This document shows, in pieces, positions 37,296 to 43,310 of a stretch of 49,063 nt of DNA (the stretch's first letter is position 1; each line of letters begins with the position of its first letter). The notes beneath the pieces are model-generated. The model did not search any database and was not told where the DNA came from. It saw nothing but the letters and a program-made list of their open reading frames with translations. Made by a program: the position numbers and the translations under genes. Source of the DNA: Oceaniglobus roseus. GTDB lineage: Bacteria > Pseudomonadota > Alphaproteobacteria > Rhodobacterales > Rhodobacteraceae. The stretch covers positions 1 through 49,063 of the forward strand of contig NZ_PNOS01000037.1 of the NCBI RefSeq assembly GCF_002869745.1, given 5' to 3'.

Positions 37296-37958
37296 TCAGC
37301 TGCGCCTGACGGCCTTGAGTTCGCTGTAATCGACCATGACGTGTTCGCCGTAGGCGGGGCGGGCGGCGAGGCGGTCGTAGTAGGCCTCGGCGCCCGGGGG
37401 CGGTCGGCGGTCGAGGTCGAGGGTGAAGTAGCGGTAGAGGACGTGGCCCGCCCATATGTCGGCGAGGGAAAAGTCGCCGAGCAGCCAGTCGCCCCGGCAT
37501 TGGTCGCAGAAGAGGGCGAGGTTCCTCTCGAAGCGGCGCAGGCCCTTCTCGATCGCGGCGGTGTCGCGCTCGGCCTCGGGGGTGCGCCAGTGGGCCCAGA
37601 AGACGGGCACGGTGAAACTGGCGGCGAGCGTGTGCTTCGACCACTCGGCCCACATGTCGATCACGGCGCGGGCGTCGGGACCGTCGGGCCAGAACGGCGG
37701 GTCCCCGAAGCGGGCGAGGAGGGCGCGCAGGATCGCGGCGCTCTCGAACAGGGCGGGGCCGTCGCCGATCCTCACCGTCGGGATCAGGCCGGGCGGGTTC
37801 ATGGCGCGGTAGTCGGGCGTGTCGAGCCCGCCGAAACGGCCGCCCGCGTCGATGCGGCGGAAGGGCAGGCCCATCTCGGCAAGCCCCCAGAGCACGGCCT
37901 GCACGTTCGAGGACGTCGCGCGTCCCCAGACCGTGATCTCTTCGGTGATCTCTTCCAT
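37296..37958 (-). CDS. glutathione S-transferase family protein
   Basis: A 220-residue GST. N-terminal thioredoxin-like domain (EEITVWGRATSSNVQAVLWGLAEMGLPFRRIDAGG...MNPPGLIPTVRIGDGPALFESAAILRALLARFG) with the cis-Pro/ES glutathione-binding motif, and an all-helical C-terminal domain (FSLADIWAGHVLYRYF). The WGRATSSN context puts a Ser/Thr at the usual active-site position. Start ATG at 37958 with GGGAG 8 bp upstream. Divergent from the Anbu cluster. Confidence 0.88.
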   Translation of the reverse strand: MEEITEEITVWGRATSSNVQAVLWGLAEMGLPFRRIDAGGRFGGLDTPDYRAMNPPGLIPTVRIGDGPALFESAAILRALLARFGDPPFWPDGPDARAVIDMWAEWSKHTLAASFTVPVFWAHWRTPEAERDTAAIEKGLRRFERNLALFCDQCRGDWLLGDFSLADIWAGHVLYRYFTLDLDRRPPPGAEAYYDRLAARPAYGEHVMVDYSELKAVRRS

Positions 37959-38187
37959 CTGCGTTCTCCCTGTCGCGGTGGCGCCATGGTGCCGCTGGCT
38001 CCGACGATGTCCAGCGGCTTTGCCGTCTGCAAGGCCTTGCGGCGGAGGTGCCGCAAAACCGGGCAGTTGCGGTGCGGGAACGGGGCGGGGTGAGGCAGTG
38101 ACGTTTGCCTTGGCGGCACGTTGCGAATATCTGTAAGAAAAACATCGGGGCAGCGGAGGGCGCGCCATCACGACCTATTTCAACGAG
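37959..38187. promoter_or_regulatory. divergent region before the Anbu cluster
   Basis: About 230 bp. A hairpin TTGCGGC/GCCGCAA lies at 38037-38056 (6-nt loop). TTGCCT (38105-38110) with ATATCT (38127-38132) 16 bp downstream is a weak promoter candidate for the plus-strand cluster. GGAGGG (38155-38160) is an ideal Shine-Dalgarno for an in-frame ATC at 38167, not for the ATG at 38188. Confidence 0.4.
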
Positions 38188-39579
38188 ATGTACGACGGCT
38201 CGGACGTGCGTCCGCCCTATCGCGGGCTCGAAGGCTGGAGCCGCGACATGCCGAGCGAATTGAAGGCGATGAAGCAGTCCGAGGCCGAGGCGCTGTTCCG
38301 GCGCATCGGCATCACCTTCGCCGTCTACGGCGAGGGCGGCTCGCCCGACCGGCTGATCCCCTTCGACATGTTCCCCCGCGTCTTCTCGGCCGACGAGTGG
38401 CACCGGCTGGAACGCGGCATCAAGCAGCGGGCGCGGGCGCTGAACGCCTTCCTCGTCGATGTCTACGGGCGGGGCGAGATCGTGAAGGCGGGGCGGATCC
38501 CGGGGCGGCTGGTCTATCAGAACGAGGCCTACGAGACGGCGGTCTGCGGTTTCGTGCCGCCGAAGGGGGTCTATTCCCACATCGTCGGCATCGACCTCGT
38601 CCGCACCGGCCCCGACGAGTTCTTCGTGCTGGAGGACAATTGCCGCACGCCCTCGGGCGTGTCCTACATGCTGGAGAACCGCGAGATCATGATGCGGATG
38701 TTCCCGCAGCTGTTCCAGCACAACCGGATCGCGCCGGTCGAGAACTATCCGGGCCTCTTGCGCCGCACGCTCGCCTCGGTGGCACCGCGGAAGTGCGAGG
38801 GTGAGCCGCGGGTCGTGATCCTGACGCCCGGCCATTACAACTCGGCCTATTACGAGCACTCGTTCCTCGCCGACATGATGGGGGTCGAACTGGTCGAGGG
38901 GGCGGACCTGTTCGTCGAGGGCGATTACTGCTGGATGCGCACGACGGAAGGCCCGAAGCGGGTCGACGTGATCTATCGGCGGATCGACGACGCCTTCATC
39001 GACCCGCTGTGCTTCCGCCCCGATTCCATGCTGGGGGTCGCGGGGCTGATGAACGTCTACCGCTCGGGCGGCGTCACGATCTGCTCGGCGCCCGGCGCGG
39101 GGGTCGCGGATGACAAGGCGATCTATACCTTTGTGCCGGAAATGGTGCGCTTCTACCTCGGGGAAGAGCCGATCCTGAACAACGTGCCGACCTGGCAATG
39201 CGCCAAGTCCGACGACTGCAAGTACGTGCTGGAGCATCTGCCGGAGCTCGTCGTGAAGGAGGTCCACGGATCGGGCGGCTACGGGATGCTGGTGGGGCCG
39301 AAGGCGGACAGGAGCACCATCGACATCTTCGCCGAGAAGATCCGCGAGAAGCCCTGGAACTACATCGCGCAGCCGACGCTGGCGCTGTCGACCTGCCCGA
39401 CCTTCGTGGACGAGGGGATCGCGCCGCGCCATGTGGATCTGCGCCCCTACTGCCTTGTCGGCGAGCAGATCGAGCTGGTGCCGGGCGGGCTGACGCGGGT
39501 CGCGCTGAAGGAGGGATCGCTGGTCGTGAACTCGTCCCAGGGCGGCGGGGTCAAGGACACCTGGGTGATGGCGGAATGA
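38188..39579 (+). CDS. circularly permuted type 2 ATP-grasp protein (Anbu cluster)
   Basis: At least 463 residues. ATP-grasp signatures: LEDNCRTPSGVSYMLENREIMMRMFP, GHYNSAYYEHSFLADMMGVELVEGADL, VDVIYRRIDDAFIDPL and LVVKEVHGSGGYGMLVGP. Enzymes of this group join acids to amines using ATP, and this family is predicted to make peptide-like bonds. The coordinate uses the first standard start codon, ATG at 38188. The likely true start is ATC at 38167, which adds seven residues giving a TTYFNEM-type N-terminus and has GGAGGG 6 bp upstream. First gene of the Anbu cluster. Confidence 0.92.
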   Translation: MYDGSDVRPPYRGLEGWSRDMPSELKAMKQSEAEALFRRIGITFAVYGEGGSPDRLIPFDMFPRVFSADEWHRLERGIKQRARALNAFLVDVYGRGEIVKAGRIPGRLVYQNEAYETAVCGFVPPKGVYSHIVGIDLVRTGPDEFFVLEDNCRTPSGVSYMLENREIMMRMFPQLFQHNRIAPVENYPGLLRRTLASVAPRKCEGEPRVVILTPGHYNSAYYEHSFLADMMGVELVEGADLFVEGDYCWMRTTEGPKRVDVIYRRIDDAFIDPLCFRPDSMLGVAGLMNVYRSGGVTICSAPGAGVADDKAIYTFVPEMVRFYLGEEPILNNVPTWQCAKSDDCKYVLEHLPELVVKEVHGSGGYGMLVGPKADRSTIDIFAEKIREKPWNYIAQPTLALSTCPTFVDEGIAPRHVDLRPYCLVGEQIELVPGGLTRVALKEGSLVVNSSQGGGVKDTWVMAE

Positions 39580-39644
39580 GCGACATGGACCCTCACCCGA
39601 CCGCCCCCGAAGGCACTACCCCGAAGGGAGGTTCGACATGCTGA
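39576..39644 (+). CDS. candidate 22-codon micro-ORF between the ATP-grasp and alpha-E genes
   Basis: The ATG at 39576 overlaps the ATP-grasp stop (ATGA) and the TGA at 39642-39644 lies inside the alpha-E gene, whose ATG is at 39638. The peptide starts MSDMDPHP, is rich in Pro/Thr, and ends PKGGSTC. It covers exactly the 58-bp gap. The alpha-E Shine-Dalgarno (GGGAGG, about 39625-39630) lies inside it. Codon third positions are less G+C-biased than in real neighbours, so it may be only a coupling spacer that happens to be open. Confidence 0.2.
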   Translation: MSDMDPHPTAPEGTTPKGGSTC

Positions 39645-40591
39645 GCCGCACGGCGGAGAACCTGTTCTGGACGGCCCGCTACATCGAGCGCGCCGAGACC
39701 AACGCGCGGCTGCTGGAGGTCGGGGCACGCAACGCGCTGATCCCGAACACCGGCGGCGGCTACCGCAACGAGTGGGACTCGGTCCTGCAGGCCAGCGGCA
39801 CCGCCGCGGCCTTCGCCGAGAAATACGGCGAGACGGTGCAGCGCAACATCGAGACCTGGATGTTCTTCGACCGCGACAACCCGAACTCGGTCACCTCCTG
39901 CATAGAGCGGGCGCGCGAGAACGGGCGGATCGTGCGCACCGCGCTGACCTCCCAGGTCTGGGACGTGCTGAACACCGCCTTCGCGGAGGTGCGGGAGTTC
40001 GCGCGCCAGGAACGCTCGTCCCTCAGCCTGTCGGACCTAACGGACTGGACGCTGCGGACGACGGCGCTGGTCCGCGGCTCGGCGCTGAACACGCAACTGA
40101 GGAACGACGGCAACGACTTCACCAACATCGGCCACTACCTCGAACGGGCCGACAGCACCGCGCGGCTGCTCGACGTGAAGTATTTTGTGCTGCTGCCGAC
40201 GATCAGCCACGTCGGCTCGGGGCTCGACAATTACCAGTGGCGCACGCTGCTGCGGGCGATGTCCAGCAACCGGGCGTTCAACTGGGCCTACGGCGGCGAG
40301 ATCAGCCCGGCGAAGATCGTCGATTTCCTGGTGCTGAACCGGGCCTGCCCGCGTTCGCTGCTGTCCGCCGTGGAGGGCGCGAACGACCACCTTGACCGGC
40401 TGGCGCGGGCCTACGGCCGCTCGACGGCGGCGCAGACCGCGGTGCGGGGCATGGTGGGCGAGCTTGCGGACATGACCGTGGAGGACATCTTCGACGAGGG
40501 CCTGCACGAGTTCCTGACCCGCTTCATCCTGCGCGTCGGCGCCCTCGCGGGCGAGGTGCAGCGGACGTATCTTAGCGGAGAGATGCGATGA
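39638..40591 (+). CDS. alpha-E domain-containing protein (Anbu cluster)
   Basis: A 317-residue nearly all-helical protein of the alpha-E family, starting MLSRTAENLFWTARYIERAETNARLLEVG, which is diagnostic. Also visible are NIGHYLERADSTARLLDVKYF and a second helical repeat. Function unknown; it is found with ATP-grasp and transglutaminase genes and is predicted to take part in making or attaching a peptide. The ATG has GGGAGG 7 bp upstream. The stop overlaps the transglutaminase start by ATGA. Confidence 0.93.
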   Translation: MLSRTAENLFWTARYIERAETNARLLEVGARNALIPNTGGGYRNEWDSVLQASGTAAAFAEKYGETVQRNIETWMFFDRDNPNSVTSCIERARENGRIVRTALTSQVWDVLNTAFAEVREFARQERSSLSLSDLTDWTLRTTALVRGSALNTQLRNDGNDFTNIGHYLERADSTARLLDVKYFVLLPTISHVGSGLDNYQWRTLLRAMSSNRAFNWAYGGEISPAKIVDFLVLNRACPRSLLSAVEGANDHLDRLARAYGRSTAAQTAVRGMVGELADMTVEDIFDEGLHEFLTRFILRVGALAGEVQRTYLSGEMR

Positions 40592-41433
40592 GACTGCTGG
40601 TTTCCCACGAGACGGTGTACCGCTTCGATCCGCCGATGAAGGGCGTTGTGCAGAGCCATCGCCTGACCCCCTCGCAGTTCGAGGGGCAGACGGTCATCGA
40701 CTGGTCGGTCGAGGTCGAGGGCGCGACGCGCGGCGCGGCCTTCCGTGACGGGGCGGGCGACTGGGTGGAAACGGTCAGCCTTCTCGGCCCGGTCGAGGAG
40801 GTGCGCGTGATCGTGAAGGGCACGGTCGAGACGGTGGACCTTGCCGGCGTGCTGCGCGGCCACCGCGAGACGGTGCCGCCCGAGGCCTACCTGCGGCCGA
40901 CCCATGCCACCTGGCCCGACGCGGCGGTGAAGGTGCTGGCCGAGGAGGCGCTGGAAGGGGTGGCGCAGGACGAGATCCTGTCGCGCGCCCATGCGCTGGC
41001 CAAGGCGGTGTCGGAGGCGATCGAGTACACCCCGGGCGAGACGGAGGCGACGACGACGGCGGCCGAGGCGCTGGCGCTGGGGCGGGGGGTCTGCCAGGAC
41101 CACACCCACGCGCTGATCGCCGTGGCACAGGCGTCGGACATTCCGGCGCGATACGTCACCGGCTATCTCGAATCGGGCAACGACGGCGCGGCCCACGAGG
41201 CCAGCCACGCCTGGGCCGAGCTCTTCGTCGCCGGTCTGGGCTGGATCGGGTTCGACGCGGCGAACAAGTGCTGCCCGGACGCGCGCTATGTCCGGCTCGG
41301 CTCGGGGCACGATGCCCAGGGCGCGGCGCCGATTCGCGGCGTGGCCTCGGGCATGGGGATCGAGGCGATGGAAGTGGACGTGAGCGTGGTCGACGGCGAC
41401 CGCGCCGCCGGCCAGAGCCAGACCCAGCAGTAG
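40588..41433 (+). CDS. transglutaminase-like cysteine peptidase family protein (Anbu cluster)
   Basis: A 281-residue protein. An N-terminal bacterial transglutaminase-like domain (about 1-100, beta-rich: MRLLVSHETVYRFDPPM) precedes the papain-like transglutaminase core with Cys169 (GVCQDHTH), His207 (HAWAELF) and Asp223 (GFDAANK). It could hydrolyse or form isopeptide-type bonds. Translationally coupled to the alpha-E gene by ATGA. Likely works on the same substrate as the ATP-grasp enzyme and Anbu. Confidence 0.93.
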   Translation: MRLLVSHETVYRFDPPMKGVVQSHRLTPSQFEGQTVIDWSVEVEGATRGAAFRDGAGDWVETVSLLGPVEEVRVIVKGTVETVDLAGVLRGHRETVPPEAYLRPTHATWPDAAVKVLAEEALEGVAQDEILSRAHALAKAVSEAIEYTPGETEATTTAAEALALGRGVCQDHTHALIAVAQASDIPARYVTGYLESGNDGAAHEASHAWAELFVAGLGWIGFDAANKCCPDARYVRLGSGHDAQGAAPIRGVASGMGIEAMEVDVSVVDGDRAAGQSQTQQ

Positions 41434-41470
41434 CGTCTTTCGCGGAACGCCCGCGAATTAACCGGTTCTG

Positions 41471-41502
41471 CATCCGGTGATGCGATGTTGCATCGCCGGA
41501 TG
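41471..41502 (+). promoter_or_regulatory. 13-bp hairpin in front of anbu
   Basis: CATCCGGTGATGC (41471-41483) pairs with GCATCGCCGGATG (41490-41502) across a 6-nt loop, with one G-U pair. No T-tract follows. It sits in the 158-bp gap between the transglutaminase stop and anbu, the largest gap in the cluster. Confidence 0.7.
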
Positions 41503-41591
41503 GCGTGTCGTGACGCGCATCGTTGCGTCGCCCCCGGCTTGGTTCTAAACGTGCCGCCTGGTCGGGGCCGAGTTTGGCGGGCGGGGGTGCG

Positions 41592-42317
41592 ATGACCTAT
41601 TGCGTGGGTATGCTGCTGAATGCGGGCATGGTTCTTCTGTCGGACACGCGCACCAATGCCGGGCTCGACAACATCTCGATCTATCGCAAGATGTTCACCT
41701 TCGAGAGCCCGGGCGAGCGGGTGATCGCGATCATGACGGCGGGCAGCCTGTCGGTCACGCAGACCACCATCGCCCGGCTCGCGGATGCGATCGACAATCC
41801 TGACTCGACGATGACGCCCTCGATCATGCAGGCCGAGACGATGCTCCAGGTGGCCGAGATCGTCGGCAACACCCTGTCCCGGGTGGCCAGCGACATCGCG
41901 ATGAAGCTTGGCGGCATGTCGCAGAACGCCTCGGCCACGATGATCGTCGCCGGGCAGCGGCGGGGCGGGGACATGCGGATGTTCCTCGTCTATCCCGAGG
42001 GCAACTTCATCGAGGCGACGTCGGACACCCCGTTCCTCCAGATCGGCGAGCACAAGTACGGCAAGCCGATCCTCGACCGCGTCGTGACGATGGACACCTC
42101 GCTGCTCGACGCGCAGAAGGCGGTGCTGCTCTCGATGGATTCGACCCTGCGTTCGAACCTGTCGGTGGGGATGCCGCTGGACCTCGCGGTGATCGAGGCG
42201 GACCAGATGCGCCTCAGCCGCCTGCGCCGGATCGAGGCGGATGATCCGGTGTTCCACAAGATGAGCCTCGCCTGGTCCGAGGCCCTGCGCCGCAGCTTCA
42301 CCGAAATCGAGGTCTGA
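41592..42317 (+). CDS. Anbu: proteasome-type Ntn-hydrolase peptidase
   Basis: A 241-residue proteasome-beta-like protein. The ATG at 41592 is decisive because it places Thr2 (MTYCVGMLL) at the N-terminus after Met removal. Counting from that Thr as 1, Asp17 (LSDTRTN) and Lys32 (YRKMFTF) occupy the proteasomal catalytic positions. The frame extends upstream, but that would bury the nucleophile. This is the Anbu (ancestral beta-subunit) family, reported to form open-ring/spiral assemblies without an obvious ATPase. Last gene of the cluster. Confidence 0.93.
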   Translation: MTYCVGMLLNAGMVLLSDTRTNAGLDNISIYRKMFTFESPGERVIAIMTAGSLSVTQTTIARLADAIDNPDSTMTPSIMQAETMLQVAEIVGNTLSRVASDIAMKLGGMSQNASATMIVAGQRRGGDMRMFLVYPEGNFIEATSDTPFLQIGEHKYGKPILDRVVTMDTSLLDAQKAVLLSMDSTLRSNLSVGMPLDLAVIEADQMRLSRLRRIEADDPVFHKMSLAWSEALRRSFTEIEV

Positions 42318-42423
42318 CGTCGTCACCGGCTCCGCGCTGCCGCTTGCGCAGGCAACGGGCGGGGCTCTTCGCCCAAGCCGTGTCCGCGCTGCCGCGCCGG
42401 GCGATCAATCGTGGCGTGTTCGC

Positions 42424-42453
42424 TTGACCTTGCGCAAACTCTCGCTTTGCTAT
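42424..42453 (+). promoter_or_regulatory. candidate promoter for the FAH-family gene
   Basis: TTGACC (42424-42429) and TGCTAT (42448-42453) with 18 bp between them, 24 bp before the ATG at 42477. The -35 is near-consensus and the -10 is a moderate match. Confidence 0.5.
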
Positions 42454-42476
42454 GGCGGCAGTTAAGGGAATTCGCG

Positions 42477-43310
42477 ATGAAGTTCTTGAGATTTGGGGAT
42501 CCGGGGGCCGAGCGGCCGGGCCTGATCGACGCGCAGGGAAGGCTGCGCGACCTGTCGCGGGACATCCACGACCTGTCGGGCGAGGTCCTTGGCCGCCTCG
42601 GCACGTTCGATCCGCAGAAATACCCGCTGGTCGAGGGCACGCCGCGCCTTGGCGTGCCGGTGGCGGGGGTGGGGAAGTTCGTCTGCGTCGGCATGAACTA
42701 TACCGACCACGCCCGCGAGAACGGCATGCAGCCCCCGCGCGAGCCGATCATCTTCCTCAAGGCGACCTCGTCGCTCTCGGGGCCCGGCGACGCCATCGTG
42801 CTGCCGCCGCTGTCGGAGAAGGCGGACTGGGAGGTCGAGCTGGGCGTCGTGATCGGGCGGCTGGCGAAGAACGTGACCGAGGACGCGGCGCTGTCCCATG
42901 TCGCGGGCTTCGTCACGGTCAACGACGTGAGCGACCGCGAATTCCAGATCGAGCGGGCGGGGCAGTGGACCAAGGGCAAGTCGGCCGACACCTTCGGCCC
43001 CGTCGGCCCCTGGCTGGTGACGCCGGACGCGGCGGGCGATCCGCAGGACATGGCGCTGAGGGCCTGGGTGAACGGCGTGCTGATGCAGGACGGGCACACG
43101 TCGAACATGATCTTCCCGGTGCGCCGCCTGATCTCCTACGTATCGCAGTTCATGTCGCTGCACCCGGGCGACATCATCGCCACCGGCTCGCCCTCGGGGG
43201 TCGGCATGGGGCGGCGGCCGCAGATCTATCTCCGGCCCGGCGACGTGGTCGAGGCCGAGGTGGGCGCGCTCGGGCGGCAGAGGCAGGCGGTGGCGGCCTC
43301 CGCGCCCTGA
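42477..43310 (+). CDS. fumarylacetoacetate hydrolase (FAH) family protein
   Basis: A 277-residue FAH-fold enzyme. Metal ligands Glu119 and Glu121 in WEVELGVVIG and Asp150 in VNDVSDRE are present, with GKSADTFGPVGPWLVTPD and DIIATGSPSGVGMG following. These enzymes hydrolyse, decarboxylate or isomerise beta-keto/enol acids in aromatic or sugar-acid degradation; the substrate is open. The ATG at 42477 begins the characteristic MKFLRFGDPG. The stop lies in a hairpin shared with the convergent hydrolase. Confidence 0.9.
   Translation: MKFLRFGDPGAERPGLIDAQGRLRDLSRDIHDLSGEVLGRLGTFDPQKYPLVEGTPRLGVPVAGVGKFVCVGMNYTDHARENGMQPPREPIIFLKATSSLSGPGDAIVLPPLSEKADWEVELGVVIGRLAKNVTEDAALSHVAGFVTVNDVSDREFQIERAGQWTKGKSADTFGPVGPWLVTPDAAGDPQDMALRAWVNGVLMQDGHTSNMIFPVRRLISYVSQFMSLHPGDIIATGSPSGVGMGRRPQIYLRPGDVVEAEVGALGRQRQAVAASAP

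Follow-up and report, generated by a model that had tools for sequence, protein, structure and literature searches.

We present a comparative analysis of the Anbu cluster of the alphaproteobacterium Oceaniglobus roseus, four genes in line on the + strand at positions 38167-42317 of the 49,063-nucleotide (nt) contig NZ_PNOS01000037.1 (assembly GCF_002869745.1; the whole contig is hereafter the window), which code for a circularly permuted ATP-grasp ligase, an alpha-E protein, a transglutaminase-like (TG-like) cysteine hydrolase and the proteasome-like N-terminal-threonine hydrolase Anbu. Across genomes, Anbu depends on the ATP-grasp/alpha-E pair and not the reverse, and the TG-like hydrolase is a replaceable part of the cluster, its place being taken in several alphaproteobacterial lineages by an aminoacyl-tRNA-protein transferase. 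We tentatively favor the view, which we consider a fair way from certain and still somewhat short of probable, that the cassette both makes and breaks one amide bond, whose acceptor is a protein or a protein-derived peptide. The four-gene cluster itself is already published, and the window carries a canonical member of it.

Anbu and the ATP-grasp/alpha-E pair

In a class-level sample of 115 genomes, alpha-E was found in 40 and an Anbu match in 30, all 30 falling within the 40. A phylum-level sample of 398 genomes yielded Anbu in 145 and alpha-E in 212, with both in 142, Anbu only in 3, alpha-E only in 70 and neither in 183 (Fisher p 2e-49, a value that ignores kinship and genome size). In the order to which genome G028 belongs, 33 of the 35 genomes with Anbu also have alpha-E; the remaining two likewise lack the transferase that neighbors alpha-E in their kin, and an assembly gap is possible. 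Anbu frequently lies apart from the ligase pair and still co-occurs with alpha-E, and each of the eight unlinked clade-II Anbu genes of the class sample lies in an alpha-E genome. Because Anbu occurs almost only with alpha-E while alpha-E often occurs without Anbu, the pattern favors an action of Anbu downstream of the ligase. One of the 30 class-sample matches is a decaying copy in a genome that has kept alpha-E (G075, L082:7968-8381), an Anbu remnant of 137 residues with Asp17 changed to Gly.

The alpha-E gene follows the ligase gene at a median distance of 5 nt (79 pairs), and 19 paralogues (18 distinct; L114-L120, L122-L131, L241 and L250, with L241 repeating L114) combine both in one fused protein. 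The structural model of one fused paralogue reaches a pTM of 0.92 over 795 amino acids (aa), which is why the two domains probably hold a fixed arrangement. From this predicted placement, the adjacency of the genes and the fusions, we infer that ATP-grasp and alpha-E are two parts of one ligase. The structural neighbors of the model, after PDB 3N6X, are the glutathione, homoglutathione, glutathionylspermidine and trypanothione synthetases, YgiC, YjfC and the ligase Cp1B.

The unfused ligases have E149, D150, N151, R153, K310 and K357 (numbering from ATG 38188) identical in 151 of 151 sequences, 134 of them distinct. Magnesium binding by a motif of the E149-x-N151 type is assigned by analogy with glutathione-type synthetases, and the putative Mg/ATP residues E149, D150, N151, K310 and K357 are intact in the window ligase. 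The fused paralogues keep E149 and N151 in 0 of 19, R153 in 2, K357 in 4 and D150 in 17, with N448 mostly changed. They are probably not working ligases, since the likely metal-liganding E-x-N motif is missing. Genes of the size of TG-DUF2126 fusions and small TG genes often stand beside them. Release of phosphate from ATP has been reported for an ATP-grasp orthologue (PMC6376114).

The window alpha-E (39638-40591, + strand, 317 aa; PF04168, 287 bits) is built from a pair of helical repeats in tandem, both of which carry an ER motif. Its halves are homologous, a profile comparison of 1-154 with 152-317 scoring 127 (E 1.2e-21, 145 columns) and placing ER motif upon ER motif, against at most 16.8 in 20 column-shuffled controls. 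Among 115 aligned alpha-E proteins R18, G165 and E169 are invariant, and R170 and several other arginines nearly so. The model of the window protein (pLDDT 94.3, pTM 0.92) found no match at E 0.001 or better in a Foldseek search of the PDB, and the sequence gave only low scores there, such as RecA fusions at E 0.003, which we take as chance. On the profile and model comparisons, alpha-E is an internal duplication whose confidently predicted structure matches no solved fold.

The third slot and the N-degron neighborhood

The gene after alpha-E was determined for 154 alpha-E genes (137 distinct), a set deliberately enriched for the transferase: it codes for the transferase in 85 cases, for the TG-like hydrolase in 45, directly for Anbu in 6 and for none of these in 16, while 2 run into a contig end. 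In two loci (L169 and L170, the latter with a confirmed DUF2126 domain) a large TG gene precedes Anbu. Six class-sample genomes from six families (G015, G028, G040, G051, G079 and G105) have the transferase, of families PF04376/PF04377 as checked with Pfam in two of the six, directly after alpha-E. Overall the transferase occurs in 38 of the 40 alpha-E genomes of that sample against 30 of the 75 others, a difference that genome size may explain. Named genomes, some of them already among the genomes sampled above, were also scanned by a query drawn mainly from transferase-linked alpha-E; for the best 80 of 293 alpha-E relatives the next gene is the transferase in 65, the hydrolase in 7 and neither in 6, a contig end follows in 2, and both never occur together; a stricter start-to-start distance leaves 50 transferase-next loci instead of 65. 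The organisms behind the 80 loci include Azospirillum, Pelagibius, Tistlia, Niveispirillum and Thalassobaculum.

A divergent Anbu is common in genomes of the transferase type, where it lies apart from the ligase pair, typically between a D-Ala-D-Ala carboxypeptidase gene and a phasin-clpS-clpA stretch; eight examples are 31-35% identical to the window Anbu and keep the catalytic residues. The order of G028 has 36 Anbu places, of which 29 were classed as divergent by their weaker E-values and 20 of these fetched. ClpS is within reach in 14 of the 20, phasin in 17 and the carboxypeptidase in 17, several loci being cut by contig ends; L174 and L175, from the genus of G028, have none of the three. 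ClpS is also within reach in five of eight class-sample loci, including that of G035, in which alpha-E is not in tandem with the transferase. Transferase, ClpS and ClpA are genes of the bacterial N-degron pathway, and in some lineages both halves of the system, the ligase pair and Anbu, stand near them. This neighborhood is the most novel and the least certain addition of our analysis. In full-text searches confined to an open-licence library, we found no paper naming a link of the cluster to the transferase or to clpS-clpA. Neither transferase, ClpS nor ClpA is linked to the window cluster; such linkage was found in other lineages only, and in the O. roseus genome the transferase sits elsewhere (contig C23).

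A quite conceivable alternative, if somewhat doubtful, is that the transferase and clpS-clpA neighbors are inherited leftovers of chance rearrangements and functionally silent. A quick tree of 119 alpha-E rows is consistent with this, as the transferase label needs only 6 changes on it against a shuffled mean of 39.4, and so is the presence of phasin and carboxypeptidase genes, each in 17 of 20 loci, beside the same divergent Anbu; the mutS neighborhood of Anbu in another lineage likewise looks like chance. Such relics would nonetheless have to account for an alpha-E/transferase tandem in 27 of the 42 genomes that have both genes in the order of G028 (61 genomes obtained of 120 requested; alpha-E in 43, transferase in 55), across five families, and for its recurrence, with the genes overlapping or only narrowly separated, in Azospirillum, Niveispirillum, Thalassobaculum and others. 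The transferase, moreover, stands in the very slot held elsewhere by the hydrolase.

Gene products and gene start in the window cluster

The four window genes are closely spaced, at distances of 58 nt, a 4-nt overlap and 158 nt in order, which is compatible with a single transcription unit, and their order on one strand is that of the Anbu operon. A preliminary description made from the window sequence had called four collinear genes with intact catalytic residues. Order, strand, and Pfam and PDB matches agree with the former claim and the alignments with the latter, the ligase residues being conserved in the unfused type only. It also rightly held the association to be established and the product unknown, the cluster being published and its product not.

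The ATP-grasp gene (38167-39579, + strand; PF14403, 547 bits, and PF04174, 494 bits) has 470 codons counted from ATC, or 463 from ATG 38188, and matches PDB 3N6X at E 1.6e-194. The hydrolase (40588-41433, + strand, 281 aa; PF08379, 61 bits, and PF01841, 76 bits) is papain-like. Of 66 small relatives, 62 share its Cys169, 64 its His207 and 65 its Asp223, and each of the three is present in 18 of 18 large ones. Anbu (41592-42317, + strand, 241 aa) begins with MTYCVG and matches five solved Anbu structures (PDB 5LOY, 5NYJ, 5NYF, 5NYW and 5LOX) at E 2.5e-74 to 1.6e-57; an alignment of 28 Anbu proteins shows its Thr1, Asp17 and Lys32 unchanged in all 28. Its score of 21.3 bits against PF00227 falls slightly below the curated cut-off of 22.4, a shortfall that we do not count as defining, because PF00227 models proteasomes in general rather than Anbu in particular.

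From the upstream stop down to ATG 38188 the ligase frame contains no ATG, GTG or TTG, and conservation at the protein level begins seven codons ahead of that ATG, at ATC 38167. The protein started at the ATC aligns to 3N6X from residue 4 (E 2e-195). A Shine-Dalgarno site, GGAGG (38155-38159, + strand), lies 7 nt ahead of the ATC, where the anti-Shine-Dalgarno duplex reaches -10.0 kcal/mol as against +0.4 before the internal ATG. Four of five other genomes of the genus that were searched have the gene. Together with the window this gives five genes, three having ATC and two ATT at the start position; a Shine-Dalgarno site precedes every one, and the pairing ranges from -6.3 to -10.0 kcal/mol at that codon and from +0.4 to +3.1 at the internal ATG. 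The codon differences among the five ahead of the internal ATG are third-position ones, with one codon excepted. Given this conservation, the ATC/ATT codons of the congeners, the pairing and the third-position differences, we place the start at ATC 38167, as the preliminary description had done, and the genus appears to use a non-canonical ATC/ATT start for this gene. Two of the five genes have a further possible start upstream (a TTG 12 codons before in L146 and a CTG at the frame edge in L135). Among 16 other family members, ATG, GTG or TTG stands at the same register in 6, and the remaining 10 begin in different registers. In one congener (G117, L146) the gene is split into two overlapping frames, perhaps through decay or an assembly error.

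The stretch before Anbu (41434-41591, + strand) is the only gap of more than 60 nt in the cluster. Reading frames of 20 codons or more on either strand gave no match between the window and four congeners, and a single weak match of 18 residues (E 0.01) joined two congeners, the window not included. As the gap is short in most relatives (median of the TG-Anbu gap 36 nt in 31 clusters) and its frames are not conserved in the genus, we rejected a hidden tag or precursor gene, in keeping with the earlier remark that no ubiquitin- or Pup-like tag is visible. The accompanying remark that there is no ATPase is true of the window cluster but not of related lineages, where clpS and clpA, an AAA+ gene, are found close to a divergent Anbu.

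Within 37700-42600 the search for sigma-70-like promoters and terminators came up empty, a result of little weight as chance predicts only 0.3 and 2.1, respectively. The sigma-54 (nitrogen-type) consensus has 14 matches in the window against 18.6 by chance, none of them ahead of the cluster, and a promoter of this type was rejected. A phage defense role was likewise set aside, the four proteins having no match in PADLOC; an NCBIfam search gave no match. The flanking genes were discounted as system members, being poorly kept around family loci: of 20 such loci fetched, 4, all from congeners, keep the FAA hydrolase gene and 7 the alpha/beta hydrolase gene, while those for GST and PNPOx had no match at E 1e-20. 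The O. roseus genome holds one ATP-grasp of the Anbu-cluster kind, one alpha-E and two TG-like genes. The second TG-like protein, encoded by a frame of 1124 residues, also carries a DUF2126 putative amidoligase domain (contig C24, L294:3492-6866, - strand), and no ATP-grasp or alpha-E match was found within the 14 kb fetched around it.

Proposed role of the cassette

We posit that ATP-grasp and alpha-E would form an ADP-forming carboxylate-amine ligase that makes an amide bond between an acceptor and an amino acid or short peptide. The cysteine and N-terminal-threonine hydrolases would then cut this bond or trim the product. The cassette may in this way tailor protein ends or side chains and feed or spare turnover, chiefly under nitrogen limitation. 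A protein acceptor is what we infer from the transferase in the third slot and the divergent Anbu near clpS. The nitrogen role is suggested by expression in Pseudomonas putida, where the Anbu gene rises by 4.44 log2 and the ATP-grasp gene by 3.99 log2 on nitrate versus ammonium (PMC8050072, Table 2), and by marine metagenomes, in which the domains of the cluster reportedly track those of urea metabolism (PMC3597751). The preliminary description had weighed a tagging and degradation system against the synthesis and turnover of a small peptide, hypotheses that are both already in print (PMC6376114, PMC5666114). Its gene calls, residues and association stand; its single system of four parts has to be amended on two points, as clusters can do without the hydrolase and Anbu relies on the ligase pair.

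The known systems compared here differ from the window cluster in the following ways. The published four-gene operon (Valas and Bourne 2008; Iyer et al. 2009; Fuchs et al. 2017; Piasecka et al. 2018; gene order described in PMC6376114) shares its families, order and catalytic residues, and differs in the start of the ATP-grasp gene, which is ATC in the window and ATC/ATT in the congeners having it. Proteasome-like families are treated in PMC8665760, and PMC12239564 and PMC8407117 touch on related or incidental genes. The Pup- and ubiquitin-proteasome systems likewise combine a ligase with a proteasome-like hydrolase, whereas the window cluster has neither a tag protein nor an unfoldase gene, and Anbu is described as an open split ring (PMC5666114). 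The bacterial N-degron pathway is connected through gene neighborhood in the lineages named above, whereas the O. roseus genome shows no visible link to it.

In glutathionylspermidine synthetase/amidase, a ligase and a papain-like amidase that breaks the bond made are parts of one polypeptide. Its ligase is likewise an ATP-grasp enzyme, with a fold likeness seen through the fused-paralogue model, whereas the Anbu cluster has separate genes, the additional alpha-E and an N-terminal-threonine hydrolase.

Several observations weigh against the proposed make-and-break system acting on proteins. The solved relatives of this ligase mostly take small molecules as substrates. The transferase and clpS-clpA neighbors occur in lineages other than that of the window, at least four of the six changes of the transferase label are forced by well-supported branches, part of the pattern may be hitchhiking, and the only Azospirillum Anbu locus fetched (L077; Azospirillum cavernae, G051) has no clpS within reach. 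The three Anbu genomes without an alpha-E match all come from one genus (G235, G438 and G527; L154, L155 and L156). Outside the class, one lineage of the phylum has its unlinked Anbu next to mutS in seven of eight clustered loci (L157-L162, L168 and L171), as checked with Pfam in one. An alpha/beta hydrolase gene also lies near, and we take the mutS link as uninformative. In the experiments of PMC6376114, Anbu did not cut proteasome substrates and showed no peptidase activity, the co-expressed operon proteins gave no stable complex, and glutamine or glutamate did not stimulate ATP-grasp. PMC5666114 similarly reports no change on co-expression, and expression unchanged under various conditions other than nitrogen limitation. 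In P. putida the stretch upstream of the ATP-grasp gene responds to nitrogen (3.7-fold), but that upstream of Anbu does not (PMC8050072). The ATPase test, as described in PMC6376114, was run on ATP-grasp by itself and with Anbu, HslV, glutamine or glutamate added, and it is possible that past failures arose because alpha-E was left out.

A bolder form of the proposal, which we regard as improbable though worth stating, is that ATP-grasp/alpha-E is a second N-degron-like arm adding amino acids to proteins without tRNA, with the TG-like enzyme and Anbu removing them; in Azospirillum, Pelagibius and their kin the system would then be wired directly to the transferase, with Anbu tied to ClpS-ClpA as well in several of these lineages.

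A free small peptide or peptide-like metabolite, built by ATP-grasp and alpha-E and processed or recycled by the hydrolases, is an unlikely product in our estimate, though one to be taken seriously; a role in small-peptide synthesis and turnover is said to have been proposed by Iyer et al. in 2009. The structural neighbors of the fused-paralogue model make glutathione-like compounds, a second putative amidoligase forms part of the paralogous TG-DUF2126 protein, and the ligase pair lacks Anbu in 70 of 212 alpha-E genomes, as would a biosynthetic pair with an optional tailoring enzyme. Set against this, we noticed no conserved gene for a transporter, regulator or precursor peptide, though no systematic search was made, and one large group of lineages has protein-modifying and protein-degrading neighbor genes. 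That Anbu is a general protease under nitrogen shortage with ligase genes just co-regulated, as preferred by Fuchs et al. 2017 and in PMC5666114, which reports a split-ring multimer binding proteasome inhibitors and an Anbu gene induced by nitrogen limitation, is very doubtful, since a self-sufficient protease should need no ligase pair, and yet Anbu lacks alpha-E in just 3 of 145 genomes although it is often unlinked.

Since 2008 Anbu has stood as a proteasome relative with no assigned substrate, and the comparisons presented here narrow its role to one downstream of ATP-grasp/alpha-E. New in this account are this constraint on Anbu, the duplication and unsolved fold of alpha-E and its tie to the ligase, the loss of a likely metal-ligand motif in the fused paralogues, the apparent genus-wide ATC/ATT start and the lineages with an N-degron neighborhood. 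A conserved non-canonical start codon is known from infC, and an AUC/AUU start of the ATP-grasp gene, if genus-wide, would be a further, rare example outside the translation-factor genes. Azospirillum and its kin are the bacteria in which the link to protein aminoacylation can be tested.

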